Source: Amyelois transitella | Taxonomy: Eukaryota > Arthropoda > Insecta > Lepidoptera > Pyralidae | Assembly: GCF_032362555.1 (NCBI RefSeq) | Contig: NC_083531.1 | Span: 1,612,001 to 1,676,000, forward strand | DNA: 64,000 nt | Direction of reading: 5' to 3' | Shown: positions 12,844 through 52,600 of the stretch, piece after piece | Layout of the letters: every line of letters begins with the position of its first letter | Position numbering within the stretch: the stretch's first letter is position 1 | Program-made: the position numbers and the translations under genes | Notes under the pieces: model-generated | What the model was told of the DNA's origin: nothing | Databases searched by the model: none | Seen by the model: the letters and a program-made list of their open reading frames with translations, nothing else

Positions 12844-15031
12844 ATGGGTGTTTACACAGCCGTAATTTTTGGCGCGTTTTTTGTGTTTATTGAGGTAGCG
12901 GGTTCCTTAGAACCTTCGAGAATCGTGGTAACGAAACAGGGGAAAGTTGAAGGTGAATTAGCCAGTAATGGGTTGTATTATGAATTTTTGGGCATTCGTT
13001 ACGGCGTTCCTGTAAAATTTAGGGTAAGTTTGACTGTTTTTACGATCGCACCCCTGTAACTTTCTATTAATGTTCAAAGTCCGTTACTTTTGTTCAATAT
13101 TGACTGAACGTAGTAAACATATAATTATTTTTTCTGAGCTTGTTTTCACTAAGTCTGATACAATTAACAATAACAAAAATATCATTTTCTAGGCCCCCGA
13201 AGAACCGCCATCTTTCGACGAAGTTTACAAAGCCGACAACAGAGCAGTATTATGCCCTCAATTCCTCACTACTGACCCCTTGGCAGCACCAAGTGAAAAC
13301 GAAGACTGCCTGGTTCTTAACATCTACTCCCCAAGCGCTGTCACCAATTCCTCATTACCAGTCCTTGTTTTTCTCCACGGAGGAGGCTTCGGCACTGGAT
13401 CTGGCTCTCCAAGCTTCTACGGCCCACAATACCTAGTCAGTCATGGCATTATTGTAGTTACGGTGAATTATAGACTCAACGCGTATGGCTTCCTCAATCT
13501 TGGCATAGAAGAGGCCCCTGGTAACGCTGGCTTAAAGGATATTAGAGCCGCTTTAAGATGGATCCAGGAAAATATCAAAGGCTTCAATGGTGACCCTGAT
13601 AATGTTACAGTAATGGGTCAAGGCAGCGGTGGTATAGCAGCTATTTATCTTACCTTATCTGATTCAACTAAAGGCTTATTCCACAGGATAATATCTGAAA
13701 GTGGTACTCTTTTTGCACCTCAATCCTTCGATCCAAAACCACTAAGAACCGCGAGCCAGGTTGCTAAATCTTTGGGCCTAAACACAATGGACCCTAAGAA
13801 ATTGCTTAAAACATACACAGAAACCGATATCATCAAAGTAGAAGAAGCTATTTCAAAACAAATGAATCCTAAAAGCGTTTTTTTGCCGTCAGCGGAAAAG
13901 GTTTTCGAAAACGAAGAGGCTTTTATAACTGAATCTCCTTATGCTATTTTATCAAGTGGTTCCTTCCATCCAGTCCCAATCATTCTCGGTCTGAATACGG
14001 TTGAAGGACTGACTAGTACTTTAGATTACAACACTATAACCAGCCAAATGGATAGAATTAAAAACGAAGATTACTCAGCCCTCGATCAGAGGAGTCTCAT
14101 AGTAGCCAAAGACGAAATTGAAGAATTCAGAACCACTTTGAAGGAGTCATATTTCTCTAATACCACTTCTGACGAAGCTTTGATTGGTGGTATTATTAAT
14201 TTGAATACGGACTTCTCTTTCGTGGGGCCGATGTCGTTGTTTTCTGAATTGTATTCGAATCATTCTGACGTTCCGATTTACGAGTACATTTTCAATTATA
14301 TCGGAAGCAGGAATTTGGGCCGGCTGCTGACTAATAGTAGTTTGAATGCTACGGCGCACCAAGATGAACTGTTTTACCTGTTCGAGTTAGAACGTGTACC
14401 TCTGCCTATGAATGAAGATGACGCTAGAATGGTTACCTTTATGACAATGATGTGGACTAACTTTGCACGATACGGGTAAGATTTTTTATGACTACACTTT
14501 ATTGCTTATCAATGCCCTTTGCCTCCATACACACATATTATTTTGTAAAGAATAAACCTTTACCCTAATCATAAGCAAATAAATATTATATTCTAAGGAT
14601 GAAGCGATAGATTAAAGGCTTACTTTATGGAAGGTGAAGCGAAATCAGAGAAAGAGACAGGAAAGGATATAAGATAAAAATGAAAGAAATAAATTTATGG
14701 ACTGAATTTATAGCCGGAGTTACGAGTTCCGCACATGAATTTTTATACAAAAAATCGGAACGGTTGTCCGTTTGCTCCTAACACTAATTGTATTTATTAC
14801 ATATTTTATTTATTTCTATTTATATAAGTAGTAGAGTTAACTTAAAATATCAACATAATCTATTTAAATTATTTCAGCTCACCAACTCCTGAACCACGTA
14901 ACGGCGAATGGTTCCCATACCCCTACCACCTAGCCATAACCCTGGAACCCCAATACGTGACGCCGCTCACGCCTGACCGCGCGTACTTTTGGCGCGCTTT
15001 GTACAGCCAATATGGCGCTGACATTAATTAA
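12844..15031 (+). CDS. Secreted carboxylesterase-family protein, predicted catalytically inactive
   Basis: Type-B carboxylesterase (alpha/beta hydrolase). Three exons: 12844-13023, 13193-14475 and 14878-15031. Introns are GT/AG and keep the frame (phases 0 and 2); the total is 538 aa, normal for the family. A hydrophobic signal peptide covers about residues 1-21. The oxyanion-hole motif HGGGF is at 122-126, the acidic triad residue Glu331 lies in GLNTVEG, and the His449 region reads TAHQDEL. The nucleophile elbow, normally G-x-S-x-G, reads G-Q-G-S-G at 202-206. Gly204 stands where Ser should be and a Ser is shifted one place to 205. The rest of the fold looks intact, so this is probably an expressed, non-hydrolytic paralogue (binding or chaperone-like role) and not a decayed gene. 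No ER-retention signal or GPI tail is seen. The substrate is unknown. Confidence 0.85.
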
Positions 15032-15497: not shown

Positions 15498-15680
15498 ACC
15501 ATTTTATTTTCAACGTTGTTTATTAAAAAATCTACAGAACCATATTAAAAATATTGATTGTAGACATCGTAGAGTATTGTACAGTCAACAACATATCCAA
15601 CTTACACAAAAGACACATAAATTTTTAAATTCCTCTGCAGTTTAAATTCTATTCTTACATTTTTTCCTTAATGTACATAA

Positions 15681-15979
15681 TACATACATACATACATATG
15701 GTCACGTCTATGTCCCTTGCGGGGTAGACAGAGCCAACAGTCTTTAAAAGACTGAATGACCACGTTCAGCTATTTGGCTTATTGATAGCCCATCGCCTAA
15801 AAAAGAATCCCAAATTTGTAAGCCTATCCCTTAATCGCCTTTTACGATGTCTATGGGAAAGAGATGGAATGGTCCTATTCTTTTTTGTATTGGTGCGGGG
15901 AACAGTCAGTCTTTTCAAGACTGTTGGCTCTGACCACCCCGCAAGGGCTATAGACGTGACCATATATATGTATGTATGT
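15681..15979. repeat. Inverted pair of repeat A copies
   Basis: A nearly complete minus-strand copy (15681-15903) runs straight into the 3' third of a plus-strand copy (15904-15979). Both outer ends carry (TATG)n or (CATA)n tracts. The pair can fold into a hairpin through the shared CTTTTCAAGACTGTTGGCTC block. Confidence 0.8.
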
Positions 15980-16837
15980 GAAACGGGATAGCGATGTTTA
16001 TCGCGGGATAATACTGTGTCGCGCGTGTCATTCTACGGAGACTGCTCTATTCAGGGTATTTATGACATGATGTTCGCTGTACTTTCCTATATACAATATT
16101 CCTTATACTACTTATTTTCCTACTGATATCAATTTTTATTTTTATTAAATACATAAGTATTATTATTATCAGGTTTTGTGCGTGGTCTAGAAACTTTATA
16201 AGATAATAATATAATATAGGTAATAACTCGACTGTAAAAACGAATTTCAATGACTTAATTAATTTTTTTATTATTATTTCTTTAATGCATGCTGTACAAT
16301 TCTCAAAGCATTTGTTATATCTTGATACAATAGTTATAGTAAGGCACTTTCGTTATAAGAAAAGGCACAAATTAGGCACTACTAGCTAAACCGCTTGACC
16401 GACTTTCATGAAATTTAAAATAGGGTTAGTTCCAGACTCGCGTCACAAGTTTTTGCGGGCGAACAGCTAACTAGTATGAATATATATATTATATAGAAAT
16501 AACATTTTATTAGGGCCCACATCTTTGAACATATAATTCGTAATATCGACAAAAATACAAAGATATTTGCACCACTTTTGTCGACCTCGTCGACAGCTAA
16601 CTACAAACTGACTCTAATAAAAAACGCATCGCCTCAACTGAATCACTTCAAAATATTCAAATTACATTCTAATTCGAATATCAATACCTACTTCCAAATT
16701 CAAAACTCAACAAGCAAAGTCAAACTTTGCCTCCAATTCGTGGCAAAGGAACAACACCGCATACTGCCACTGTAACTGACATTTTATTTCTTCCGTAACA
16801 CGTTTTCCAGGCAAATAAATCAAGTAGCATACACCTT
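15980..16837. other. Spacer between convergent genes
   Basis: Lies between the 3' ends of the carboxylesterase (+) and TMEM26 (-) genes. It probably includes the TMEM26 3' UTR. A short degraded Helitron-like piece (CTAGCTAAACCGCTTGACCG) is at about 16380-16480. No gene seen. Confidence 0.4.
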
Positions 16838-17192
16838 TCAACTAGAACTGGAGTCGCTCGAGCTGCTGTCGCGTTTCCTTTTGCTCTTTTTGTCTCTGTG
16901 CCTGAAAACAAATAAAAATAAGATTTCCAGAATTTAAATTTTCTTCGCTCCTAATAGTTGCAGCGTAATGTTATATAGCCTAAAGCCTTCCTCGATAAAT
17001 GGTCTATTCAACACAAAAAGAATTTTTCAATTCGAACCAGAAATTCCTGAGCTTAGCGCGTTCAAACAAACAAACAAACTCTTCAGCTTTATAATATTAG
17101 TATAGATGGTAGCAAAATTAGTGTACTCACCTGTCATGCTTCTCCTTGCGTTTAGGGCTTCGTTTAGGGCTCTCGCGACGGATCCGATGATG
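16838..17192 (-). other. In-frame coding extension downstream of the TMEM26 stop
   Basis: After the TGA at 17195-17193 the same frame stays open to 17131 (20 codons, with CGTCGCGAGAGCCCTAAACG). It then meets a good donor (GTGAG, 17130-17126). An acceptor (TTTTCAG) at 16904-16902 leads to an exon, 16901-16838, that continues in frame for 20 codons and ends in TGA with a Ser/Asp-rich tail (HRDKKSKRKRDSSSS). The composition is the same Lys/Arg/Ser-rich type as the end of the upstream protein. It is either a readthrough or ancestral C-terminus or, if the TGA always terminates, a spliced 3' UTR. Confidence 0.65.
16951..17108 (-). repeat. Helitron-like or SINE-like repeat (family H), partial
   Basis: Matches 28209-28487 and 59379-59640 in inverted orientation: CTTCAGCTTTATAATATTAGTATAG at one end, with AATGGTCTATTCAACAC inside. 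Confidence 0.6.
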
Positions 17193-20100
17193 TCAAATGC
17201 CCGAGTCGTCGGTCGTGTGGTGAATGTTATTCAGGGATTCCTCGGAGGACTCCGATTTTTGCTTTTTCTTTGAGCTGGAGAGAGAGAAGATGAGAAATTG
17301 AGAATTACATACATACATACATATAGTCACGTCTATATCCCTTACGGGGTAGACAGAGCCAATAGTCCCGAAAAGACTGAATGGCCACGTGCAGCTGCTC
17401 GGCTTAATTATGGTATTGAGATCCAAACAGAGATAGGTTGCTAGCCCATCGCCTAAAGAAAGAATCACAAGTATGTAAGCCTATCCCTTAGTCGCCTTTT
17501 ACGATATCCATGGGAAAGAAATGGAGTGGTCCTATTCTTTTTTATATTGGTGCCGGGAACCACACGGCACATTGAGAATTCTAAGAATCTTATTATATTA
17601 TTACTTTGGAACTAGCTATCGCCAACTGCTTCGCTTCGAATACCTACAGAGCCACATACAGCGCGTATTTAATTCAAAACGCATAAAAAAAAAAAATACA
17701 GGTTTTTCGCAAATGTATGTATGTTGTATTTCGCGTTAGTATTTAGCGCGAATAAAACGGACTTGCCACTATTAGTATATCTCTAGGTTTGGATTACAGA
17801 TATACTACTCTGTCAAGAAAGTAGCAGGAAAATATCAATAATACACAAACTGTTTGTTATTCATCCAAATTTATTTTATCACCTTCAAAATATGCTCCTT
17901 TAGAAACGATACACTTACGCCAACGAATAATCCAATCATCAAAACATTTTTTAAACGCTGTTTCCGGAATTGAGGTCAGTTCTCGCCGCGAATTCTCTTT
18001 TATGTCTTCTACCGATTGAAAACGGGTGCCACGAAGTGGTAATTTGAGTTTAGGAAAAAGAAAAAAGTCGGCTGGAGCCATATCTGGTGAATATGGTGGT
18101 TGCTCGATGGTATTTGTTAAGTGTTTGGTTAAAAATTCGTTCACAATGATGGCCTTGTGCGAAGGTGCATTATCATGGTGCAAAATCCAAGAATTTTCTT
18201 TCCACAAATCTGGCCTTTTTCGTCGGATTTGCTCTCAAATAATATTCCTTATTTACCGTTTGACCTTCCGGCAAGAATTTCGAGTGCACAACACCGCGAT
18301 AGTCAAAGAAAACAGTCAACATGACTTTGACTTTTGAACGACTTTGGCGTGGTTTTTTCGGTTTCGGTTCAGTTGGAAGGCGCCACTCCGAAGCTTGTTG
18401 ACTAGTTTGCATGTCAAACTCGTAAACCCACGTCTCGTCACCAGTAACAATGCGTTTCATGAATGTTGGGTCGGAATTGACTCGTTCTAGCATGTCCTCA
18501 GAGACTCTCATGCGATTGAGTTTTTGAAAAAAATTCAGGTCTTTTGGGACTAGCCGAGCGGCAACATGTTTCATACCCAAATTATTAGTTAAAATGGTAC
18601 GGATCGACTTGTGAGATACAGAAAGTTCGGTGGCTATCTCTCTCAAAGTTGAATGAGGATTTTCAGTCACTATTTCCTTCACTTTTGCGATGTTAACTTC
18701 AGTTGCAGACGTTGATGGCCTACCAGAGCGAGGCAAATCTTCCATCACATCTCGACCGCTTTTGAACGCTTTGTACCACTCATAAGCACGAGTTTTTGAT
18801 AAAGTCGATTCACCGTAAGCCTTCTGTAACATTTTCAGTGACTCCGAACACGATATTCCATTGGCAATGCAAAATTTAAGACAAACTCTTTGTTCGATGT
18901 TTTTATCCATTATGAAATTAGCAATACACACTAGATATGATATAACTAAAAATAGCACTGTATTTAATGTAAACAACAGATGGAACTCAAACTCCGCGCC
19001 AAAATGGAAAACAGTTGTGCCAATCTAACAACAACAAAAAAAACAAAAATTTGAATTTGGAACCATAAATAAATAATCCATTCCCGATACTTTTTTGACT
19101 GAATGTATCTACTAATTTAGCAGAGAAGTGATTTAATTTGAATAACGGAGCACTCGGTAAAATCCTACTAATATTATAAAATTAAATGCGAAAGTTTGTG
19201 GGTATGTCAGGATGTCAGTATGTATGTTTGTTACTCTTTCACGCAAAAACTACAGAACCGATTACGATGAAATTTGGTATGTGGGTAGCTGAAGACCCAA
19301 AATAACATATAGGCTACTTTTTATCCCGGAGTTCCCGCGGGATTGATAGGGTTTCCATGCGGACGAAGTCGCGGACGGCCTCTAGTAAAAGATATTTTAT
19401 TTTAAGTTACATATGTATAAGATGAGAGGCAGAGTTATGACATGAAAATATAAAACAAAATCTATCAATTCAAAGATGAAATTAGAAAAAAAAAACCTCT
19501 TAAATTCTAAAGAGGTTCGTCTCTCCAACAGTCACACCACGGAGGCTGCATGGTCAATAAATTAGTGCTCGATTAAATAAACCGCGGGCAAAAAAAAGTA
19601 AAATAATTTATTTAAAATACTCTTACCTCTTCTTCTTTTCATTTTCCATTGAAACCTGATCCTTGAATAATGTAGACAACTCCAGTTCCCGTATTTCGTC
19701 GGAGTTTGTCAGTATTATAGCTCTGGAATAAAAATAAAGCATGATAAAGATGTTTACTTATTTCATTGCGGAGGTCAGATGGGAGGATGTGCCGTGTGGT
19801 TCCTGGCACCAATAAAAAAAAGACTGGGACCACTGCATCTCTTTCCCATGGATGTCGTTAAAGGAGACTATGGGAAAGACTTACGAACTTGGGATTCTTC
19901 TTTAAGGCAATGGGCTAGCAACCTGTCACTATTCGAATCTCAATTCCATCATCCAACTGAAAGTGGCTTTCGAGTCTTCTGTAGATTCTGTCTGTATGAT
20001 AAAACGTAATCTTTTTGTATGAAGTTTACATTTTCTTACAAAAACATTTCATGGGGATATTAGTATAGGTATTTGTTTTTCGCTTATACTTATACAATAG

Positions 20101-23100
20101 TTTAATTTGTTCGGTCAAATTAGTCTTCAGCGTTATATATTTAACATTGCAATGAGAACCAATCAATGCCTCGCTACCCGGAGAGTCACCTTGACACGGG
20201 GCGGCCGAATCACCTGCTAGTGTTGGGATAAAACGTTTATCGATACGCTTAATGACGATAATACGATTTAATTGTCGATGCAAAAAAGAATTAAAAAATC
20301 GTAACTCAATTGTTATTGTTACTAATAATATGGGCATTAAAATTTACATACACATATCAATATTTTAAAAATATGAAACATATTCAAATGGCAATGCTGC
20401 CGGGCTTTTGGGCACACTCACGCGAGTTGATGTTATGCAAGAACTGTAAATAAAATTTTAGTCTGTAATCATCTTTTTTTATATAAGTAGTTTTAGTTTT
20501 AAAAATCAGAGGAAGCAATTGTCAGTAATAAGATTTAAAAATACTTTTCTTTACTTAGGACCGATCGATTGATTGGCCAAATAATTTTTGACATTTTATT
20601 ATTAAAAAACAAGGGAGATTGAAGTTCCAAATTTCCAAGCTCTGTTTCATCAAACCAACTGAAAATGTGCTAGATTTATTTAACAAGAAAAACTATTTTA
20701 TAGAAATCACTTTTTAAAAAATGACACATACCTATCTACGTACCTATGTAAAGCTATCTAAGTATGTCGTTACTAATTTCATTTAATTCTATTGTGGCGA
20801 CTCCACTAACGTCACACGTCATCAGCCAATCACAGCGCTTATGCTAATTCTCCATACTAAAGATTTCACGGATTGAAGCATAAATACAACCATCGACTCA
20901 ACATTGCCGAAGCCTTGGATTCCTAGGCATAACACCTAGCAGGAAGATCATGAGTGGCGGTTGAGTTCGAATCAACGCTCCCGCTAAACTATCGATAACG
21001 TTTCTTCCCATCCCTAGGCAGGGCGCGGCCTGAACGCCTGAACAATCATTTGACCCTCTACTACAAATATATGTATGTATATCTGTGTATTGGATAACGT
21101 CTGGCGCCTTGTAGGGTGAAGGGTGTTGGTTCCCTTCTATTTAGATTTGGACGCGGCTAAATTTGCGGGCGTTTTACGAATGTCTCTACAAACATCATCC
21201 CTTGCGGGGTAGACAGAGCAAGTCTTAAAAAGGCTGTAAGGTGTAAACACGTTCAGTTTTATGGCTTTATGATGGAATTGAGATTCATATAGTGACAGGT
21301 TGCTAGCCTACAAGAGGAATCCCAAGTTTATAAACCTATCCCTTAGTCGCCATTTATGACATCCATGGGAAAGATATTGAGTAGAGATGATGAGAAACGA
21401 ACTTTTTCTGATTGTCCCGGGTCTTGGATGTATAACTATATAAGTATTTATAATAAAATAAAATACAGTTAGTACAGTTGAGTTAGTATCTTCAAACACA
21501 AGTTTCGAACTTACTTCGAGGCTAACTCAATCTGTAAAATGTAAAAAAAAAATATTTAAATAAAAAAAACACAAAAATTGAACTTACCTGATCCTTCCTC
21601 CGTCCACTTTGTCATGTCTCCTGTCACTGATCATGGATATTGAGGTCTCGCCAGCACCATGCTTCTTCTGCTTTTTATCTTTGTGTTTTCTGTACAAAAA
21701 AATATAAAATAATTGTAAAAGCCGTGAGCATCTGTCATATGTACTTATGAGAACTGAGTATTTAGATTTAATCTTTTAAAGCAATGTATGTATAGTATAC
21801 AGTTGGTGTGCATATTTAAAAAAAAAAAACAAATAACATTTTGATTTGATAACCACAATTTTGGACTTTTTGGCGGGAACCCAAACGTCATGTTGTTTTG
21901 CTGTAATATTTTTTCAAAATATGTGTCTTATGATATATTAATGATTTAAAAGTGTGGATTATTGATTATTAAATGTTTTTGGACAAGCGTGAGTGTTATG
22001 GAGTGTTACAATATCGGTTTTATTCACTTTTGATGTTGTCACAAAAAGTCCTGAGAAAGGACGGAGTAAAACACTCACAGCCATAACTCGACCAATACAA
22101 AGTAAGTAAAATCTATGACTAGACTGTTTAAACTCGACACTGCCAAAAATAATCATGAAGAAGTTAGATTCTGTTTGCTGGTAGAGATTTCTTTAGAAAT
22201 TAGCAGAAAACCTACGTAATTTTGTTTCTTGTGTTTATCATTCTCGATGTTCTCTGTGTAAATAAATAAATTAAGAAAATAACAAAAACTTCATCATAAT
22301 TTGTCATAGCACTTTTATCACTCACTTGTGTTTTTTGTCCTTGTTTTTTTTCTCAGCGGACTTATGCTTGTGTTTCTTCCTGTAAACAGACCCGCCATTC
22401 CCTTCGTCCACCGTCTCCAAATGTAGCACGTAGAGGCGGTATATCTGCAGGAGGATTACCTGACGAACATTGACACAATATAAATGTGTGATTCTACAAT
22501 ATCAAGACTATTTGGCTGTGTCTACCCCGCATAGAATCAAAGCGATAGCCATAGATAAATCCATAGCCATAAATTAATCATTAGATCCAGAATATTTTTA
22601 TTCAAGATGCTACGCGGTATTTAATGGCATAATAATCAAATTCAAACTTTTATTTGCATAATATAACTGTGTGCTATATATATATATAATCTGTGGCTAA
22701 TTCTATCATAAAGCTGAACAGCTGATAGTGGCCTATCAGTATCTTTAAGACTGTTGGCTCGACCCCGCAAGGGATATAGACTTGACTATATGAATGAATA
22801 ATCTAAGGTGTAAGCGACTCATTCAACGTTAGACACTACAAAAAGGACCGAACGGTAATATAACGATGGGCTTTATAACTATCACACTCCAGCAGAATCG
22901 CGGGAAAAAGTTAATAAATTAAAAAAAAAAACAAGTCTAGGAAGACTCACCAAAGTGTTCTTGCAAGTGAAGAATATGTTCATGTAGTTAACTATTTTAT
23001 AGTGACATATGATCAGCAGTCTGAAGGCGAGGAATGGAGCGTCCTGTAACGCTATGTTCATAATGATGGCGCACACTTCAATCGAGCAGCAGCACGCGCG

Positions 23101-26100
23101 GCTGTTCCTGTAAATTATGATATATTATCTGTCAAATTGACATGATTACAAATAAAAAAAAAACAAAAAAAAATACATGCATCCCACTTCTGATATGTAA
23201 ATATCAGAGGTGGGATAAGATCTTTATACGTTATGTACCTATATACAAACAACATAACTTGGAGTACTTAACGAACAAACATAAAAGTAACTTCGAAATA
23301 GCTATTTTTTACTACTGGTTGAACTAAATACAAACTTATTTAAATAAAACGGAAGTATTAGTAACTCGAAAGAATATTTAATAACTGTTCAATGACAAAA
23401 ATGTACTTATTTATCATTTAATTCATCCTCTGATGATGCGAGAGAGAGAGATAATGTTTTTCGAACATACATATAAAGCATGCTTTAAAGCGCAATTGTA
23501 TTCTCAAACCTGCTGGCTTATTCACGAACGTTGACAAGACACGCTTATCTTTCATCTTGCTCTTACTCTGGGGTTAACCTTCAAGATAGAGAAAGAGGGA
23601 ACATAAGCCTTGAGAATATTTGCAGACCGTTATTTTAGGCAGAAGGCTGAGAATACGCTGTGAAGATAGATAGAGTAAGGAAAAAAGATCTGTATTTTAC
23701 ACCGTCGAATGAAACCAATAATGGGGTCTCTTGAGTCGCAAAAACTTTAATAACATAAATATTTTTTTCGCATAACGTTCTTAGGCATAATCATCGTTTC
23801 GCATAATACATGATTAAATGAAATTTATGCGAGACGTTGATTATGCTAAATAATTTTAGGCAAACAGATGATTATGACATTAAACTTTATCCTTGACAAT
23901 GAAAGCCGAAAAAATAAAAACAAAAATAATCACCGTGCATGACCGTGTTAGAGGCGTAGCGTGCAGTGTAAATACGTACATTTCAGACCTATTAGCTGCT
24001 CCCCTGGACTTCCTGGACTTAGTAGCGGTCAGGACCACTGTGAACTGTACCAGGGACCACGACCAGATGGCCAGGGTCAGGAGTACTAGGACCTTCTCAG
24101 TGGCAACCTTCTCGTCTTTGAAGGAGTCGAAGAATTCTATGATGTCGGCAGCTGTGCCTGGAGAAGAATTCTTATGACAGTGTGTTCCCATGATTTTCCC
24201 AACTTCAATACTGCTCTGGTAGTAAAGAAAAAGTGTGCCGTGTGGTTCCCGGCACCAATAAAAAAAAAGAATAGGACCACTCCATCTCATTCCCATGAAT
24301 GTCGTAAAAGGCGACTAAGGGATAGGCTTATAAACTTGGGATTCTTCTTTTAGGCGATGGGCTAGCAACCTGTCACTATTTGAATCTCAATTCCATCATA
24401 AAGCCAAATAGCTGAACGTAGGCTACGTTATATATTTTATAATAATATTTCAATGGCTATGCGTAATAATATTTCAATGGATGTCGTAAAAGGCGACTAA
24501 AGGATAGGCTCACAAACTTGGGATTCTTTTTTAGGCGATGGGCTAGCAACCAAATTAAGCCAAATAGCTGAACGTGGCCATTCAGTCTTTTCAAGACTGT
24601 TGGCTCTGTCTACCCCGCAAGGGATATAGAGGTGATTATATCAGTATGTAGTAAAGATAAAACATAATGTGTGCCAGTTGCTTTTCTTTTCTCGCAATCT
24701 GACCGTAAAATTCAATTCATGCTAATCTTGAACATCACCGATCGGTAACAAGTCTATGTGTCTTCAACAGGCTTCACTTTAGAGAGTGTGTACTGGAATT
24801 GCATAATTTACTTCCTTCTGCATCATTCAAATATCAGACGACACGGCGAGGGCTGCGATATTTGATATCCCTACCCTTCAAGTTTGCGATTTGCCAATCA
24901 TTCATCATGCGAACGGCTGTGATTTGGAATTCTCTCCCCGCACTTCTCTTCCGCGATCTATACAACTTGGGGATTTTCAAGGCAAGAGTAAATAGGCATT
25001 GTTTGAGCTTGTGTGCGTCACCTATGACTGCAGCTTGCTTACCACCAGGCAAATTAAGGTGAAACTCACTCAAATTATTATAATAAACATTCATATAATC
25101 ACGTCTATATCCCTTGCTGGGTAGACAGAGCCAACAGTCTTGTAAAGACTAATAGGCCACGTTCAGCTGTTTAGCTTTAAGATAGAATTGAGATTCAAAT
25201 AGGGACAGGTTGCTAGCCCATCGCCAAAAAGAAGAATCCCAAGTTTATAAGCCTACCCCTTAGTCGCCTTTTACAACATCCATGGGAAAGAGATGGAGTG
25301 GTCCTATTCTTTTTTCTATTGGTGCCGTGAACCACACGGCACGGCACTATTATAATAAAAAAGTAAAAATAAACTTAAGATTATTCTTTTAGGCAATAGG
25401 CTGGCAGCATTCTATGTTTTTTTTGGGTACCAGATCAGCATGGAAGCTGTATCTCCAGTACACTTACCAATATAAACCAGTAGAAGTTGGCTGAGCTGAT
25501 CCCTGGTCAGGTCTCCTTTAGGCAGTAACCACCTTCCCACAATGAGGGTCAACATCAGAAACTGTTCTATCAGCGTAACCCACATATCTGTTGGGATTTT
25601 GGTCGCTCCAGGAATGGGGATTTCAGTCTGGAATAGAATAACAGCTTTAATTTTCTCATTAGACAAAATAAGACGTTTAATCACCGGTGTAAAATTTAGT
25701 AACAGGATAAGGAGCAGTGTTATAAGGTAATGTTGTTATAATAATAAATAATAATAATAAATTTATTTATTCAAATTCAAATTCAATTTACAGCAAGACA
25801 GACAAAAAATTTTGTATGCATAGGAATTATAATTCTCTGCTCCCTAAGCTAGGAACGAACCTGTATTTTAGGGAGCAGTGAGTCTGGTGTGATTAATTTG
25901 CATACGCGTAATTATACAAACCAAAAAGAATAACAAAAGTATTAACAGTAGGCCTAACTGATATTTATGTGACGATATAGAGACAAGAATAGAAAAGATA
26001 ATAGGTACTTTAATGATTTGATCATGTTGAAAAGATAAATGAAAGCAGGTTAAGAAAATATACAAGTCGTTATAAGAGTATAAGAGTCAATTTCTATTAG

Positions 26101-29100
26101 CATCATAAAATAATGTAATGTAGTAGACCGTAAGTATTATAGCATAATAAATTTTAAGCATAACGTTCTTTCGCGTAACGGTTTACACAAAACTATTTGT
26201 ACCTTACCTAGCCTAAAAGTTAATTATGCCACATTAACCCGTATGCCTATTATGCAAAAATATTGTATGCCAAAGAAGAATAGGACATAACAATTTATGC
26301 GATAAAAAGTGGCCCCATAAAAATGCTACATACTTACCTCTAAAGACTCTTGATTGTTAATATTATTATTCTTGTTGGCGAGGCGAATGTCCACTTTGTG
26401 TAGTTCTAGCAGCCAAATAGCAGGAACTACCAGGCCGAGGTAGATGAAGACCGACGGGCAGAACCTGAGAACAATGTGAGTTCAACTACAATAGAAATTA
26501 TAACTTGTCTTGGAAGATATTGCAATGCGATTAGGCATCATCTCGTGCATTACCTTACACACATAAAAACTCCCTAGCACCGATGTCTACTTGTTATTTT
26601 GTATTGATATTTTTAATACATACATACATACATATAGTCACGTCTATATCCCTTACGGGGTAGACAGAGCAAATAGTCCCGAAAAGACTGAATGGCCACG
26701 TTCAGCTGCTCGACTTAATGATGGAATTGAGATCCAAATAGTGACAGGTTGCTAGCCCATCGCCTAAAAAAAGGATCGCAATTTTATGAGCCTATCCCTT
26801 AGTCGCCTTTTTAATATGTATTCATATTTTTAATATGTATCCTTTATATTGAATGGCAAAGCCTCCGTACTAGGTTCCACTGAAAATTAGCGCATTGTGT
26901 AACCTCAACATACACATGCATATGCTGAGTGGAAACCCTTTTGGTCGCATCATATTTTTCTTTTTTTTTAATTTTTTTTTCTATGTTAATGAACAATGTA
27001 ATGTTTCATCTTGCGCCAAATAAATATTTTACTTTCTTACTTTCTAAATATAATTACGTCTAATATCGAAGAAAATGCTGCAGTGCAGTTTGTTACCGCT
27101 TCTTCTGCACTGACGCCTTGGAAGCGGCAGTAGGTAAACTTAGTTTTAAGTAATTTATTTGACGTCAACCAATTTTGTTAAACCTTACGTTTTGACAATT
27201 ATTAAGCGATATGAAGTATCCTATAATAATGAATAAAAATTTTCAATTTTGAATTTTATCCCTTTGAGCCAAGAAGAAAAGAAAATTAATTTGCCGTTGA
27301 ATATATGGACTTTAGCAGGTGACTGTACACTGTCAATGATGAGTAGGGCGCGCCACATTAGTGGCTGACGCGGAGGGAAGTAAACATCGCTAAATTAAAG
27401 TCACTTCCATGCAAATTATCTATATTATCTATATAAAACGACTGAATTTGTCGATATTAAAGCTTTAACTGTATAAAAATAAATTATGATTATAAAATAT
27501 GTCGCGAGGTTTGAATCGCCTATCAATATTTAATGAAATCGCACTATAAGTTCTTTACAATCTTTTGTTATTATATAAATTAATCGTGTATTAAGAGGTT
27601 AAAGGTTGGATGGTTAAAACTTTTATTTTCTTCTCTATAGAGCATGTAAATTAAAGATTTAAAAAAAAATTCTTTTAAATTTTAAATATGCTTTTATTAA
27701 GAAAGTAAACTTTTGCTTCTTGCTTCGCTCGGGTAGGAATTTCCGGAAAACCTTCAGACGTAACAAATACATAAATACATACATATCATCACGTCTATAT
27801 CCCCTTCCGGGGTATACAGAGCCAACAGTCTTAAAAAGACTGAAAGGCCACGTTCAGCTGTTCAGCGCTTTTAGATAGAATAACAAATACCTAACACTTA
27901 AACCTACTATTTATTTGTTACTGAACGTTGGTTTTTAATCTGTGTTAAATGTCGACCAAGAGCTGTTAAGAGGAATATACGCGCCAGAAAAACCTTCGAT
28001 AGAGCTAGATGGAAAGATATTGGAGAGGCATGTGCCCATCAATAGGCGAATTTATGATGAAGAAGAATATTAGTTGGAATTCAGATTGTAAATTAAGGTT
28101 TTATGTTCAGTAATATTTCTTACAAATCTACAAAATTTTATTAAAATCAAACCAAAGGTTAGAGAGTTATCGCGTTACAAATATAAATACCTACATACAT
28201 ACTACAAAAATCTATACTAATATTATAAAACTGAAGAGTTTGTTTGTTTGAACGCGTTAATCTCAGGAACTAACTACTGGTTACAATTGAAAAATTCTTT
28301 TTGTGTTGAATAGATCATTTATCGAGGAAGGCTTTAGGCTATATAACATCACGCTGCAACTATAAGGAGCGAAGAAATAATGGAAAATGTGAAAAAAACG
28401 GGGAAAATTATTCATCCTTGAGAGCTTCAATGATGCCCTAAATAACTATTTCACTCGGACGAAGTTACGGGCACAGCTAGTGTAGGTATTATAATTAATT
28501 AACTTCTACAGTGACAGACTGACTCAGAAATGACTAGAGGCTGCATATTTCTGTAAATTCCCACATGAACGAAGACCCGGACGATAGCTTAGTGACGAAA
28601 TAAGTCTCCGTTCCGCTTGACAGGCCGTTCATTGAGAATATAATGTCAAGCGTGCAGAAGGTCGTTGACATGAGGGAAAGGTGTTACATTACCTTATTTT
28701 TATTTATTAACATACATATATATATATATAGTCACGTCTATATCGCTTGCGGGGTAGACAGAGCCAACAGTCTTGTAAGTACTTATAGGCCACATTCAGC
28801 TTTTTGGCTTGATGATAGAATTGAGATTCAAATAGTGACAGTTTGCTGGCCCATCACCTAAAAGAAGAACCGCAAGTTTGTAAGCCTATCCCTTAGTCGC
28901 CTTTTTCGACATCCGCGGGAAAGAAAAGGAGTGGACGTATTCTTTTTTTTATTTTACGCTTGTCCTAGAAGCTGTAAAAAAAATATCTAATTTCCCATGG
29001 GAACGCAGGTCGAGGTAGCATTTTATAAGGAGTTATTCTTACCATTTCCATTCCTGATTTTCCTTGATTGTCAACGTGAATATTCCTTCGAAGATCAAGA

Positions 29101-29245
29101 GCAGAATCGGCGAGGCTAAGTACCAATACTCGATATTATTTTTAAAAAGCGTCACTTGCCATATAGCTATAATTCCGTGGCAGGCAAAAACTAATCGCGT
29201 TATAACGGCTTTTATCGTTGCCAAAACTTTGCCTACGTTGGCCAT
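17193..29245 (-). CDS. TMEM26-family multipass membrane protein
   Basis: Nine coding exons, all joining in frame: 29245-29043, 26464-26338, 25627-25468, 24157-23980, 23107-22951, 22459-22326, 21689-21588, 19722-19627 and 17274-17193. They give 413 codons including the stop. The order of conserved blocks matches the TMEM26 family: an N-terminal segment with EYWYLASP and KENQEWKWF, then VVPAIWLLELH, then IGTAADIIEFFDS, then LQDAPFLAFRL and a closing FTCKNTLVILLQIYRLYVL. Several hydrophobic stretches (about 14-34, 41-60, 71-90, 125-143, 180-205, 235-290) predict an integral membrane protein. After about residue 300 the tail is lysine-rich (KKHKHK, KHKDKKQKKH), cytosolic by composition. Function is not well known; vertebrate TMEM26 is a marker of beige fat. 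The frame ends at a TGA that is followed by further in-frame coding sequence, listed separately. Introns hold a mariner and many repeat A copies. Confidence 0.85.
17307..17570 (-). repeat. Full-length repeat A copy with 10-bp target-site duplication
   Basis: Flanked by ATTGAGAATT at 17297-17306 and 17571-17580, which defines both ends of the element: GTGCCGTGTGGTTCCCGGCACC on one side and (TATG)n on the other. It lies about 30 bp from the acceptor of the TMEM26 exon at 17274. Confidence 0.9.
17803..19107 (-). mobile_element. mariner (Tc1/mariner) element, inactive
   Basis: About 1.3 kb, the usual mariner size. The ends form imperfect inverted repeats, with GTCAAGAAAGTAGCAGGAA near 17812 against the complement of TTCCCGATACTTTTTTGAC at 19081-19099. 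Each end abuts a TA. It sits in a TMEM26 intron in the same orientation as the gene. Confidence 0.8.
17857..18910 (-). pseudogene. mariner transposase with frameshifting deletion
   Basis: Reads from MDKNIEQRV (ATG at 18910) through the HTH region (SVSHKSIRTIL), the RTGRP-like linker LPRSGRPS and the first catalytic Asp in TGDETW. The second and third Asp lie in HHDNAPSH and SPDMAPAD, 34 residues apart, which is the mariner DD34D signature. Near 18,220, just after KEYYL, the frame shifts: about seven residues are missing and the downstream part continues in another frame (WKENSWILHHDN). The product would be truncated before the second catalytic Asp, so the copy cannot supply transposase. Confidence 0.85.
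19163..19387 (+). repeat. Helitron-like nonautonomous repeat
   Basis: Starts CCTACTAATATTATAAA and ends GCGGACGGCCTCTAGT, with TACTCTTTCACGCAAAAAC and CCGATTACGATGAAATTTGG inside. The same element is at 53835-54036 and, diverged and inverted, at 37440-37620. The CTAGT end and lack of terminal inverted repeats suggest the Helitron-like elements known from Lepidoptera. Confidence 0.65.
19789..19970 (+). repeat. Repeat A copy, 3' part missing
   Basis: Begins GTGCCGTGTGGTTCCTGGCACC and runs to TCTCAATTCCATCAT, where similarity stops. It lies within a TMEM26 intron about 65 bp upstream (in the gene's sense) of the exon at 19722. Confidence 0.75.
20793..20988 (+). mobile_element. Solo LTR (family 1)
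   Basis: TGTGGCGACTCCAC at the start and CGCTCCCGCTAAA at the end, flanked by a 4-bp repeat CTAT at 20789-20792 and 20989-20992. It shares AAGATTTCACGGATTG with the copies at 6374 and 53664. The terminal CA has mutated to AA. Confidence 0.7.
21195..21560. repeat. Repeat A (-) followed by tRNA-derived SINE tail (+)
   Basis: 21195-21386 is repeat A without its (TATG)n end. It abuts 21392-21560, the body of the tRNA-type SINE (GATGAGAAACGAACTTT, GGGTCTTGGATGT, GAACTTACTTCGAGGCTAAC) with its tRNA-like head lost. Confidence 0.7.
22700..22800 (+). repeat. 5'-truncated repeat A
   Basis: Only the last 100 bp are present, from TTCTATCATAAAGC to GGGATATAGACTTGACTATATG, followed by AATG repeats. Confidence 0.65.
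23755..23880. repeat. Patch of recurring GCATAA motifs
   Basis: The short motif CGCATAA, GGCATAA or ATGCGA recurs about every 15-25 bp on both strands. A similar patch is at 26125-26300. It may be the subterminal part of a nonautonomous DNA element, but no terminal inverted repeats were found. Confidence 0.35.
24229..24648 (+). repeat. Repeat A insertion, partly doubled, with 9-bp target-site duplication
   Basis: A first copy (24235 to about 24423) lacks its 3' end and is followed by a second one (about 24478-24645) starting at GATGTCGTAAAAGGC. The whole is flanked by TAGTAAAGA at 24220-24228 and 24649-24657, so it probably inserted as one event. Confidence 0.75.
24770..25087 (+). mobile_element. 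3' end of a non-LTR retrotransposon (truncated)
   Basis: The frame from 24799 reads through FKYQTTRRGLRY, MRTAVIWNSLP and LYNLGIFKARVNRH. This is the pattern seen at the C-terminus of many LINE reverse-transcriptase ORFs (a serine/arginine-rich stretch, then W-N-x-L-P, then FKxxVxxH). Everything upstream of the last 90 codons is missing. A repeat A copy has inserted into its AT-rich tail. Confidence 0.6.
25088..25347 (-). repeat. Full-length repeat A copy with 12-bp target-site duplication
   Basis: Flanked by TATTATAATAAA at 25076-25087 and 25348-25359. It inserted in the tail of the LINE fragment, so it is younger than that element. Confidence 0.85.
26619..26817 (-). repeat. 5'-truncated repeat A with 18-bp target-site duplication
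   Basis: Flanked by GTATTGATATTTTTAATA (26601-26618) and the same 18-mer with one mismatch (26818-26835). The GTGCCGTGTGG end is missing although the target duplication is complete. This is the signature of incomplete reverse transcription. Confidence 0.8.
26895..27245 (+). repeat. Family G end followed by family E repeat
   Basis: 26895-27035 matches 11672-11790 inverted and ends in an A/T tail with CAAATAAATATTTTAC. 27058-27245 carries GAAAATGCTGCAGTG and GCCTTGGAAGCGG, shared with 35062, 56385 and 62668. Confidence 0.5.
27246..27767. other. TMEM26 intron sequence; nothing recognised
   Basis: AT-rich intronic DNA between repeats. No coding or repeat signal that I can support. Confidence 0.4.
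27768..27873 (-). repeat. Repeat A fragment (3' end)
   Basis: ACATACATATCATCACGTC through GGCCACGTTCAGCTGTTCAGC, then similarity stops. Confidence 0.7.
28209..28487 (+). repeat. Family H repeat
   Basis: Starts AAATCTATACTAATATTATAA and ends GACGAAGTTACGGGCACAGCTAGTG. Its inner block GAAGAGTTTGTTTGTTTGAACG is shared with 59379 and 16951. The TACTAATATTATAA start and CTAGT end point to a Helitron-like element. Confidence 0.6.
28706..28960 (-). repeat. Repeat A copy
   Basis: From ACATACATATATATATATATAG through TTCGACATCCGCGGGAAAG. The extreme GTGCCG end is missing. It lies just inside TMEM26 intron 1. Confidence 0.75.
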
Positions 29246-46651: not shown

Positions 46652-49600
46652 ATGATGGATAGCAACTGTTCCCGTTTCACCCCAGCGGAGGGCGGGGCGA
46701 GACTTGCAGCGGCTGCGAGTGAGCGCAACATACTGGCCGTGGAGTACCCCGCGTTCATATCAACACGTTTGGTGTACGAACACGCTTATAAGATCAGGGG
46801 GTGAGTTCTTGCTTCTTATTGCTGCTGGTTATAGTAGCGGTGGCATCCTCATAAGTCTGGAGAGGAGCCCGGTGTACAGTCTTGACCATGGACCATGAAT
46901 TGGGTGAGTCAGGTTTTTTCCTGGTAATAGATCTGGTTACATCCTCACCCATCTGGCGAAGAGCCTGGGAGCCTCGCATAACGCGAAAACTGTTGCTCCT
47001 ACTTAAATGAGTTTTTTATACAGCCTCTGTAACGCAGCGGTAGTGCGCTTGTCTGTGACACCGGATCTCCCTGGTTCGAATCCCGGATGAGAAATGAACT
47101 TTCTCTGATAAGCCGGGGTCTTGGATGTTTATTTATCTATATAAGTATGATGATTTATTATAAAATTTGTATTGTTGAGTTAGTATCTAGTAACACAAGT
47201 TTCGAACTTACTTCGATCTGTGTAATTTATCCAGGATAATTATTTATTTATAACATAATATCTAATGTTAGGTTTGAGCCAACTTATAATCAGGTGCACA
47301 AAAATTTCTCCCCTCAGGGAGTCTCCCTCTCTCGAACAACAGCTAGTCCATAGAATAAAATGAAATTCAATATTATTTGTTGATTAGTTAAGAAGGTCCT
47401 GGCAAAGTGTCAGATCAAGAGCACTCGAAACCGTTGAGTTCGCATGAAGACAGTTATGAATGTGGATGAAGCGAAGGAAGTATGCAGAGATTGTGGCAAG
47501 TGGAAAGAGGTAGTCTCTGCCTACCTCTCCGAAAAAGGAAAAAGGCGTGATTTTATGTATGTACTAGCTGTCCCGGCAAACGTTGTTTTGCCATATAAGT
47601 AATTTCTAGTTAAAAAAAATGTTAAGGGTGGACAACCCTCAACACTTAAGGGTATGAAAAATAGATGTTAGCCGATTCTCAGACCTACTGAATATGCATG
47701 CAAAATTTGGTTAAAATCGGTAAAGCCGTTTCGGAGGAGTACGGAGACAAACATTGTGACACGAGAATTTTATATATAAGATGTTTGTAACTATGCAAAA
47801 ATTTTCACCCCCCACCCCTCTCAGGGAGTTTTTCAACGATTTTCGTAAGCCAGTTAATAAAATAAAATATGTAGGTATGTATTTAGGTAAATTTTGTTTC
47901 GTCTTCGTCAGTTCTCTCTTCGACGGCAGCCAACGCTCAGTGCACATCGCCAGGGCGTCACGTGTGGAAGCCGTAGCGTACGATTACCGTGCGCTGACGG
48001 ATCTCGCGATAGCTCACGCTACGGACTATGGGGACGTTTACGATTGGTTCGCGGAGTTGGATAAAAAGGAGGTAGGTTATCTTTTGTTTTTGGTCTTAAA
48101 CTTTTGTTCGTGCAAATTTTAGTGTTTGCAGCGAGATGTACTCAGTTACATACGCATAGTTTCGTCCATATCCCCTGCGGGGAAGACAGAGCTAGCAGTT
48201 TTGAAAAGACTGATAGTCCGCGCCCGGCTGCCCGGGTCTATGAGAGATGAGGTCTTGAGATTCGTACAGTGGCTGTTTGCTAGCCCATCACCCAGAAAAG
48301 AATCCCAAGTTTAGCCTATCCTTTAGTCGCCTTTTACGATATCCATGGGAAAAATGGAGTGGTTCTATACTTTTTTGTATTGGTGCTGGAAACCACAAGG
48401 CACTGCCGTGTACTATACTAACTTAGTGTAATTTTTTCTTTCTGTAATATTATTTATTTAAAACTAAAGGTTTTTTCGGTAAATAACAACTTTGATTAGA
48501 AATAATATTTAGTTTATTGCAAACACAATTATAGTTCGGTTACAAGTACCGCGGGAAGAGAATTCAACATGGCAGACCATTTCTATCGTACCATAGACAG
48601 TTGGCGCCACGTAGTGGCAGCTACATGAACTAAACAAGGGTTGCGTTCAATTACTAACATCCACCCCTGAACGCAAGCCCATTCCATTTACACAAAACAA
48701 GAGCTTTTCTAAAGTTGTACCCTTGGTTAAAATATCGGCTACCATTTCACTACTTTTACAAAAATTAAATTTAACTTTACACTTATTAACTTGGTCTCTG
48801 AGAAAATGATACCTAATATCAATATGTTTGGTTCTTGGCAAATAACAATCATTATTAGCTAGTCTTATTGCACTTTGATTATCACAATTAATAATGATCG
48901 GGCTGGCCTGTTGCTGTCCAAGCTCCACATGTAGTTGCTGCAGCCAGAGAGCTTCCTGGGTGGCAGAGGACATGGACATGTACTCTGCCTCAGCTGTTGA
49001 GAGTGCCACAGTTGCCTGCTTGCGTGAACACCATGAGATAGCACCATTCTGTAAAATAAAAACATTACCAGTGTATGACTTGCGGTCATGCATGTCACTT
49101 GCCCAGTCAGCGTCGCAGTATGCTGCAATTGTTCCATCACCATCTTTGGTGTATACTAGCATTAAATCTTTGGTGCCCTGTAAGTATCTCAACACTCTTT
49201 TGACAGCAATCCAGTGTCCTGTCTTAGGTTCTTTATTATATCTACTTAACATATTGACTGTAAATGATATGTCTGGTCTTGTACATTGTGCCACATATAA
49301 GAGTGATCCTATTGCCTGTTGATATGGATTGTCACATACACTGTCATCTTCAGAGAACTTTAATCCCACTTCTACAGGGGTTTTTGCAGGCTTACAATCA
49401 GTCATTCCAAATTTAGCTAAAATTTCTTCAATATATTTCTTCTGATTCAACATAACTGCATTTCCTTTTCTTATTATGTGCAACCCAACACAATTACTGG
49501 CACTCCCAAGATCTTTCATATCGAAGTTAATTTTTAATTGTTCTTTAATCTTGTTTTTCACGGACAATTGAGATGTAAATAAAATCAGATCATCAACCCA

Positions 49601-52600
49601 TACAGCAATGAATGTATTCTTTTCCATATTATAATAAACACATGGGTCTGTTTTACATTGTAACATTCCTATTTCAAGCAAGACTTTATTGAGTTTTATG
49701 TTCCAAAGTCTACTTGCTTGTTTTAGTCCATAAATGGATTTGTGCAAATAACATACTTGGGAACCTTCATTATATAATTCTGGTTGTTCCATATATATCT
49801 CTTTATCTATTTCCCCTTGTAGGAATGCAGATACGGCATCCATCTGATCAATATCAAAATTAAATCTAGCAGCCAGAGCAAATAAGTAACGCAGAGTAGT
49901 GTACCTTGCTACAGGTGAATAAATTTCTTCGTAGTCTATTCCTTTACGCTGAATATAACCTTTTATGACTAGCCTCGCCTTGTATCGAACAATATTGCCA
50001 TCTTGATCTGACTTGGTCTTAAACACCCACTTTGAAGGCAAAGCTCTTTTGCTAGGAGGAAGATCAGTCAAGGTCCATGTCTTGTTTTTAATCAGTGAGC
50101 TATATTCCTCATCCATGGCCTTTCTCCACTGAGAAGCGTGTGGTGACGACAGTGCTTCCTCTACAGACTGTGGGTCAGACAAGTCAGTAAACATACAGTA
50201 CATATTACTTTCACTTACATGCTTCTCTGCTTTGTTACGATTTCTCAGATTCATACGTCCAATTTGCTGAGGAGATATATTCTTTGGAGGCTGATAACTC
50301 TCATCAAGGTCACCAACATCAGTCTCATATTCACTAGAGTTGTCTTCATCAGCCTGCCCAATGCCGGAGTAAGTATCTGACTTACTGGGAGATGGTGAAG
50401 ACACAGCTGACTCTTCGGAGTGATCATCCAATGGTGGATTGATGTTGGTAGCTTCTTGTGTTTTATTCTGTAATTTTTCAAAGAATATTACATCTCTACT
50501 AATGAGTATTTTACTTGATTTCGGATCAAATAAACGATATCCTTTGGAAGTCTCACAATACCCAACTAATATCATTCGGTTTGATTTTTTGTCCCATTTA
50601 CGCCGTTTTTCCTTTGGTATGTGTACCATAGCTTCTGACCCAAATATTCTCATGTGCGACAGATTGGGTTTTTTGCTAGTCCACATTTCATAGGGTGTCT
50701 TATATCCTAAAGATTTGGTAGGAGATCTGTTAACAATATAAGCTGCAGTAGCTATGGCTTCAGCCCAAAAACGTTTGTTTAGATTTGCATAAAACAACAT
50801 GCATCGCGCTCGCTCAACAAGGGTGCGGTTCATTCTTTCTGCCATGCCATTATGCTGAGGCGTATAAGGTGTTGAGGTTTGATGAGTTATACCACTGTTA
50901 GATAAATATTTTTCAAAGTGCACATTGCAATATTCTGTACCATTGTCTGTTCTAATGGTTTTAATTTTATAGCTTAATTTATTTTCTGCTTTTAACTTAA
51001 AATCCTTAAATATTTCCAAAACATTCAATTTATCTTTCATAAAATAAACATGCACCATTCTGGTATAGTCATCAATAAAAGTTATGAAATATTTCATACC
51101 TGCATGTGACAAGTTCTCCATGGGCCCACACAAATCCGAATGAATAACTTCCAAAGGTTGAGTTGCCCTGGTACCTGTATTTTTAAATGGCAGTCTGGCT
51201 TGTTTACCTTCACAGCATTGGATACATCTGGTGACATTACTACTAGCTGGAGTCAGAGTCACACCATCTGCACAGTCTGGTAATTTGCTTACAGCGGAAA
51301 CATGCAAATGAGCCATCCTGAAATGCCACAAATCAATGCTATTAATATTTTCTCCATCTGAAGTTAAGTGAGCTGTTTCACAGTTACTTTTGGTTTCTAG
51401 TACATACAACTTGTTTTTCAATGTAGCAGAACACACATATTTTCCACTTATATCATGTATATCACAGCCTGTGTCATTAAATGTTACTTTATGACCACAT
51501 TTAACTATGGTACTCACAGAAAGCAGATTGGTTGCCAATCCAGGAACATATAGGACATTTTTTACCTGTATCTTATTGCCCTGTGATAGGTAAATATCTA
51601 TGCAACCAAGTCCTTTTACCGGCAATGGTTCTCTGTTGGCCACTGTGATGCTATTTACTGATGGTGCTGTGACGTTGTACATCCAATCAACTCTGCTTGT
51701 CATATGCATGGATGCACCGGAGTCAATATACCACTTATCTTTCTCTTCTCCTACTGTAGCTGAAAAAGCTGCGACAAAACTTGACCTCTCTTCACTTTTG
51801 TGCTCATTTTTATTTGTTTTCTCAGCGCTCTTACAAAACTTGGCAAAGTGCCCATATTTATTACATTTGAAACACCGAGGGCCCTTATATTTTGATGGCT
51901 TTTGATTGTTATTGGTCTTCTTTGAGTTTGTAAAGAAAGCAGCGCTATTATCAGTTGTCTTTATTTCTTGTAGAAGTTTTGTTTTCACAAGATCAGCACT
52001 TATTTCAATACCCGAACTCTCCAGTCCCATGATCATGGGAGCATATACATCTGGAAGGCCTGCCAGCATGAGGGTTCCGAGCCACTCATCGTTTACTTCA
52101 AAGCCAATATTCCTGAGCTTGTGTGCTGTAGTCATGATTTTGCTTATGAAGTCTTCAACACCGCTGCATGACTCTAGAGATGTGTTGACTAAATCTTTTA
52201 GGAGACCAACTTTTCTGGTCAGTCCGCGGTCATCAAAGGCCTTAAGTAGATTATCCCACACTTGTTTGGCTGTTTGGCAGTTCTGTACATGTACATATAT
52301 CTGTGGATCCAGAAGTAATATCAACTTAGCCTTGGCCTTGACGTCTTTGGTAGCATTCACACTTTTCTCGGGACCCGGTTCAACACATTGCCACAAATCT
52401 TCATGTTCTAAATAAGTTTTTGCTGCAAACTTCCATGTAGCAAAGTTTTCACGTCCAGTGAGTTTCTCTAAATTGAACATTTGACCATGAGAGCTCATCT
52501 TGAAAGATACTGAAAAAATTTCACACGTGTCTTGTCGTTTTTTCTTAACCTCAACTTGAACTCGGTAACTGTTTTGCCGGTAAACTTGCGGAATATCGGT

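Follow-up and report, generated by a model that had tools for sequence, protein, structure and literature searches.

Does the TGA that lies in frame in exon 9 of a moth TMEM26 gene end the protein, or do some ribosomes pass it and add a tail that is encoded on both sides of a further intron? We examined this question in a stretch of 64,000 nt from the genome of Amyelois transitella (NC_083531.1, positions 1,612,001 to 1,676,000), hereafter called the window. TMEM26 lies on its minus strand, spanning 16838..29245, and consists of coding exons 1–10, whose boundaries were read by hand from consensus splice sites and a single frame. The Pfam profile Tmem26 (PF09772) was matched by residues 7–283 of the 412-residue protein at 338.8 bits, compared to a cut-off of 22.2 (E = 3.5e-101; search with the first 412 residues). 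As the match spans the full length of the profile (1–285 of 285), the membrane domain is intact. Exons 1–8 set the reading frame, and exon 8 exits in phase 2, so that exon 9 reads SKKKQKSESSEESLNNIHHTTDDSGI-TGA. The features that bear on the question are collected in Table 1.

Table 1. Features of TMEM26 and of the region around its first in-frame TGA (coordinates are those of the window).
Feature	Position	Strand	Details
TMEM26 start and end	ATG 29245; second TGA 16840-16838	-	exon chain read by hand
Exon 7	21588..21689	-	102 nt, phase 2 in / 2 out
Exon 8	19627..19722	-	96 nt, phase 2 in / 2 out; direct in-frame splice to exon 10 possible
Exon 9	17131..17274	-	144 nt, phase 2 in / 2 out; holds first TGA
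First in-frame TGA	17193..17195	-	TGA-CAT; 62 nt upstream of exon 9/10 junction
Frame after TGA, exon 9	17131..17192	-	HHRIRRESPKRSPKRKEKHD + two bases of split Arg codon
12-nt tandem duplication	17149..17171	-	1.9 copies, encodes SPKR-SPKR
Intron 9	16902..17130	-	229 nt, GTGAGT...TTTTCAG
Repeat-element copy filling most of intron 9	16939..17108	-	
Exon 10, coding part	16838..16901	-	last base of split Arg codon, HRDKKSKRKRDSSSSDSSSS, TGA 16840-16838; enters at phase 2
AATAAA	16783..16788	-	first one past first TGA; 50 nt beyond second TGA; no ATTAAA earlier

A TGA in exon 9 with an in-frame, spliced continuation is a confirmed observation. The initial annotation had placed this TGA at 17195-17193 with C as the next base, followed by 20 codons to a good donor, an in-phase join to an acceptor at 16904-16902, 20 more codons, and a second TGA. 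All of these coordinates were reproduced. The exon 9 donor after the TGA is CAG/GTGAGT, with 62 nt between TGA and donor and the intron starting at 17130; the acceptor is TTATTTGTTTTCAG, with its last base at 16902. The extra peptide comprises 20 residues, one residue from the split codon, and 20 further residues, giving 41 in total (HHRIRRESPKRSPKRKEKHD-R-HRDKKSKRKRDSSSSDSSSS). Without splicing, the frame after the TGA ends after 21 residues at a TGA within the donor, and the splice is thus required only for the second half of the extension. Either way, a second open reading frame of at least 10 codons follows the first TGA (21 codons unspliced, 41 spliced).

Splice sites were scored leave-one-out on TMEM26's own nine introns. 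At 12.5 bits, the acceptor of intron 9 ranked first among the nine, and its near-perfect donor ranked second at 11.6 bits. The donor pattern MAGGTRAGT occurred six times on both strands of the window, compared to 1.78 expected. The acceptor of exon 9 itself scored 6.5 bits. Sites able to remove just the TGA were weak, the best acceptor between TGA and donor reaching 3.6 bits. The splice sites of intron 9 are better than chance, and on their strength exon 10 was taken as the probable true last exon. The first TGA would then fall within the last exon but one, at a distance of 62 nt from the junction.

The composition of the tail was evaluated against 20,000 dinucleotide shuffles of the tail, scored for an open frame and for richness in K, R, S, D, E, and H, a class that was picked after the tail was viewed and that also marks the tail before the stop. 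The extra residues had been described as Lys/Arg/Ser-rich, like those preceding the stop, and this description held: 38 of the 41 residues belong to the class, which is also enriched in residues 286–412. Its share was 0.22 in residues 1–285, 0.61 in residues 286–412, and 0.93 after the stop. No shuffle (0/20000) was both open and equally rich. For the exon 9 part alone (17 of 20 residues in the class) 2/20000 shuffles matched, and for the exon 10 part (20 of 20) 0/20000 did. Openness by itself was common: it was seen in 7536/20000 shuffles, and the +1 frame stays open over the same stretch as well. The amino-acid composition of the tail is beyond chance; its openness alone is not. The 12-nt duplication is not the source of this composition, since the exon 9 part was still matched by 2/20000 shuffles with one copy collapsed. 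The poly-Ser end does not come from a simple DNA repeat either, as the 11 serines of the tail are spread over five codons. At codon position 3, GC content was 0.61 for the tail versus 0.59 for the coding sequence before the TGA. Overall GC content was 0.55 and 0.50 in the two parts of the tail, compared to 0.32 for intron 9 and 0.41 for the 100 nt past the second TGA.

Codon usage gave no support for a coding tail. The model was small (1427 codons), being trained on four segments of the window: TMEM26 codons 1–363 and three stop-to-stop frames, of which one had no Pfam match and one matched over just 50 residues, and which may include noncoding bases. Frame 0 of the tail scored 0.8 bits, a value reached by 445 of 1950 noncoding comparison segments, these being overlapping windows, and exceeded by 82% of coding windows. 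The +1 frame scored higher (4.2 bits). Taken separately, the exon 9 part scored −2.6 bits (3118 of 6477 noncoding segments as high), whereas 3.5 bits were obtained for the exon 10 part (340 of 6477). When synonymous choice alone was considered, frame 0 scored 2.9 bits (139 of 1950 noncoding segments as high; near the middle of the coding windows) and the +1 frame −4.3 bits. With a model of this size, the full codon score and the synonymous-only score thus disagree in direction on frame 0 versus the +1 frame.

We tentatively favor functional readthrough of the TGA-C, yielding a second, longer product, while granting it somewhat less than an even chance. TMEM26 mRNA spliced through exon 10 would then give rise to two products. 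The majority of ribosomes would halt at the UGA-C in exon 9, releasing the 412-residue protein, and a minority would decode the UGA by near-cognate tRNA pairing and add 41 residues, resulting in a 454-residue protein that carries a strongly basic, Ser-rich tail. The spliced transcript, the readthrough itself, and selection on the tail are what we infer from the DNA. Readthrough is supported by the frame being taken up in phase by a well-formed last exon, by a tail composition that is rare in shuffles and resembles that before the stop, by a codon position 3 GC content near that of the coding sequence before the TGA, and by an overall GC content above that of intron 9 and of the 100 nt past the second TGA. 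It is weakened by the low codon usage score of the tail, with the +1 frame above frame 0, and by the fact that exon 9 is skippable in frame.

The frame, the splice-site strength, the tail composition, and the context of the stop are all observed in the sequence. The description of UGA-C as a leaky context in the initial annotation agrees with the available text of PMC5100048 for insects and of PMC3609751 for yeast. Among the conserved Drosophila and Anopheles readthrough candidates, as given in the accessible part of PMC5100048, TGA accounts for 61–76% of stops and C for 49–63% of next bases. In the spectrum of single-step nonsense changes of TMEM26, TGA-C made up 5.0–5.2% over the whole coding sequence, 1.9–2.0% in the last 120 codons, and none of the changes in exons 9 and 10 (the TGA site itself excluded). 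These frequencies favor readthrough about six-fold or more over random nonsense, provided that TGA and C are independent. This factor is softened by three considerations: at the TGA site the next base is C whichever stop arose; the extension crosses an intron, for which the table in PMC3840789, as far as available, holds two examples; and UGA makes up only 25% of the readthrough events reported from ribosome profiling (PMC3840789, in the part accessible). The last figure also makes TGA a weaker pointer than the conserved set implies.

Other signals that can accompany readthrough were sought near the stop. No stable RNA structure was found past the TGA (z-scores of +0.94 over 100 nt and −0.17 over 119 nt); in the accessible portion of PMC5100048, RNA structure within 100 nt of the stop is an optional feature, present in 9% of readthrough candidates. 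The 8-mer CAGCAGCA, likewise optional and found near the stop in 23% of candidates (PMC5100048, available text), was absent from a 379-nt stretch that starts 250 nt ahead of the TGA and ends at the second stop. The CUAG motif, also named in the available text of that paper, was absent, as the bases after the TGA are CAT.

Three options had been put forward for this locus in the initial annotation, namely readthrough, a recent nonsense change or assembly error, and a stop that is now tolerated and has a spliced 3' UTR behind it. All three survive, but a fourth, in-frame skipping of exon 9, had been overlooked. A recent or segregating nonsense change strikes us as a real, if doubtful, possibility. 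The ancestral protein would have run from exon 9 into exon 10, and a one-base change to TGA would be tolerated with the 42 lost residues being a dispensable low-complexity tail. The downstream frame and the splice sites are intact, as a recent event would leave them, and the stop sits in the penultimate coding exon, a position at which a nonsense change is unremarkable and a natural stop less expected. Moreover, such cases are dropped in PMC5100048, to judge from the text available, by requiring the stop beyond close relatives, whereas the present analysis covers a single genome; recent-nonsense and alternative-splicing classes are sorted out there by cross-species alignment. Against a recent nonsense change, TGA-C is a minor single-step outcome in TMEM26 (2–5%), although the next base would be C for any stop at this site, and the membrane domain is intact.

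Alternative C-termini, which we regard as unlikely, would arise if exon 9 were a stop-bearing cassette. Skipping it would join exon 8 to exon 10 (ENEKKK-RHRDKKSKRKRDSSSSDSSSS), and the exon 9 codons after the TGA would be 3' UTR. Stop-bearing cassette exons that give alternative C-termini are a known kind, and exon 9 resembles them in being symmetric, in carrying a stop, and in that skipping it leads into the following exon in frame. Exons 7, 8, and 9 are all of phase 2-2, exon 9 is a symmetric 144 nt, and exon 10 enters in phase 2. The skipped product is open and reaches exon 10 without readthrough, and by codon usage the exon 10 part of the tail comes closer to coding sequence than the exon 9 part does (3.5 versus −2.6 bits). 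However, both splice sites of exon 9 are strong (acceptor 6.5 bits, donor 11.6 bits), which makes skipping not obvious, and the K/R/S-rich frame past the stop in exon 9 (2/20000 shuffles, also with the duplication collapsed) is neither needed by this model nor demanded by the kind. An ordinary stop with a 3' UTR intron, in which case the open frame past the stop and the composition of that frame would be accidents, appears very unlikely. Open frames of this length are indeed common (7536/20000 shuffles), the +1 frame is open too, and frame 0 is not favored by codon usage; on the other hand, the composition of frame 0 is rare in shuffles, the phase matches, and an AATAAA follows 50 nt past the second stop. 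We give hardly any weight to other recoding, by selenocysteine or by A-to-I editing that turns UGA into UGG, or to an artefact in the form of an assembly error. Both selenocysteine and editing of this type would need a UGA, but the Lepidoptera examined in PMC2500217 are, in the text available, without selenoproteins, and the four Rfam matches obtained at 15500-18000 with E up to 10 include no SECIS. As for editing, the TGA lies outside all 18 inverted-repeat pairs detected at 15700-19700, in a search that short or gapped duplexes would escape.

Returning to readthrough, the longer product could act as a switch that swaps the C-terminus of TMEM26 and thereby changes its partners or location; this we consider improbable. 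The end of the short form, -DSGI, which we take to fit the class I PDZ-ligand pattern, would be buried, and a basic tail rich in SP and KR with a poly-Ser end would be added. By taking ribosomes across the last junction, readthrough might in addition spare the message from decay. In mammalian nonsense-mediated decay, the boundary is set at 50–55 nt; the TMEM26 TGA, at 62 nt from the junction, exceeds it.

Further copies of the gene were sought in the genome (327 Mb in 33 contigs). No second TMEM26 copy was found there, as all five Pfam matches were exons 1–5 of TMEM26 itself. Similarly, among 41 DNA matches to 16838-17274 (best 40 of 968 candidates scored), none except the gene's own locus reached exon 9 or exon 10. 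The repeat element in intron 9 accounted for at least 39 other genomic places, which match query bases 155–351 at 92–96% identity (best 40 of 968 candidates scored), and one further short piece of 40 bases was among the matches listed. No relative was detected in viral and prokaryote record collections with the 412-residue protein or exon 5 alone as queries, a search that is silent on conservation in insects.

Several other elements were observed in the window. By eye, the intron 9 repeat seems to recur in the opposite orientation in intron 1, at approximately 28205-28350. Intron 8 contains a mariner-like element (17860-19024, minus strand) with matches to Mos1-type HTH and Transposase_1 domains; it is broken, since the transposase is split over two frames (19024-18176 and 18234-17860). 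Outside TMEM26, an open frame of the carboxylesterase family (PF00135, E = 4.1e-98) lies at 13193-14476 on the plus strand. Two exons on the minus strand, one matching ThiF (44276-44106) and one matching rhodanese (34502-34191), appear by eye to be parts of a MOCS3/Uba4-like gene, and an open frame resembling a FLYWCH/MULE transposase adjoins this region (33501-32107). A single stop-free frame of 1323 codons at 48650-52618 (minus strand) looks, on visual inspection, like a copia-type retroelement polyprotein. At 61574-62218 (plus strand), a Dicer dimerisation domain was matched (E = 1.4e-07), and a Dicer gene may sit at the right end of the window.

The TMEM26 case shares with the Drosophila and Anopheles readthrough genes, as described in the accessible parts of PMC5100048 and PMC3840789, the TGA-C stop and an in-frame extension of tens of residues. 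Its basic tail is of the kind able to act as a nuclear localization signal, and some Drosophila readthrough extensions carry working signals of this type (PMC3840789, available text). The TMEM26 extension differs in crossing an intron and in showing no clear codon-usage coding signal; precedents for the former are two Drosophila extensions with a splice mark, RpL27A and RhoBTB, in the part of table 2 of Dunn et al. (PMC3840789) that was available. In bumblebees, 851 readthrough candidates were listed, at least 306 of which were judged functional (PMC7826183, available text). For Lepidoptera, the accessible text of PMC10917498 states that its authors were aware of no study on the frequency of readthrough. 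Their Automeris io Dll is comparable in that there, too, the gene model of a moth is interrupted by a stop codon, with readthrough raised as a possibility; it differs from TMEM26 in being another gene and in that the cause was left open by the authors (PMC10917498, same text). The TMEM26 case was not reported in the titles and abstracts among the matches listed for readthrough in moths, Lepidoptera, or Bombyx mori, or for insect TMEM26, a literature set covering few subscription papers.

Readthrough is well documented in insects, and the TMEM26 case would add to a known phenomenon. Should the stop reflect a nonsense change of recent origin, or exon 9 be a cassette, the case is an ordinary one. 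If the arrangement is conserved, it would represent readthrough with a spliced extension in a moth, with a membrane protein receiving two tails from one message.
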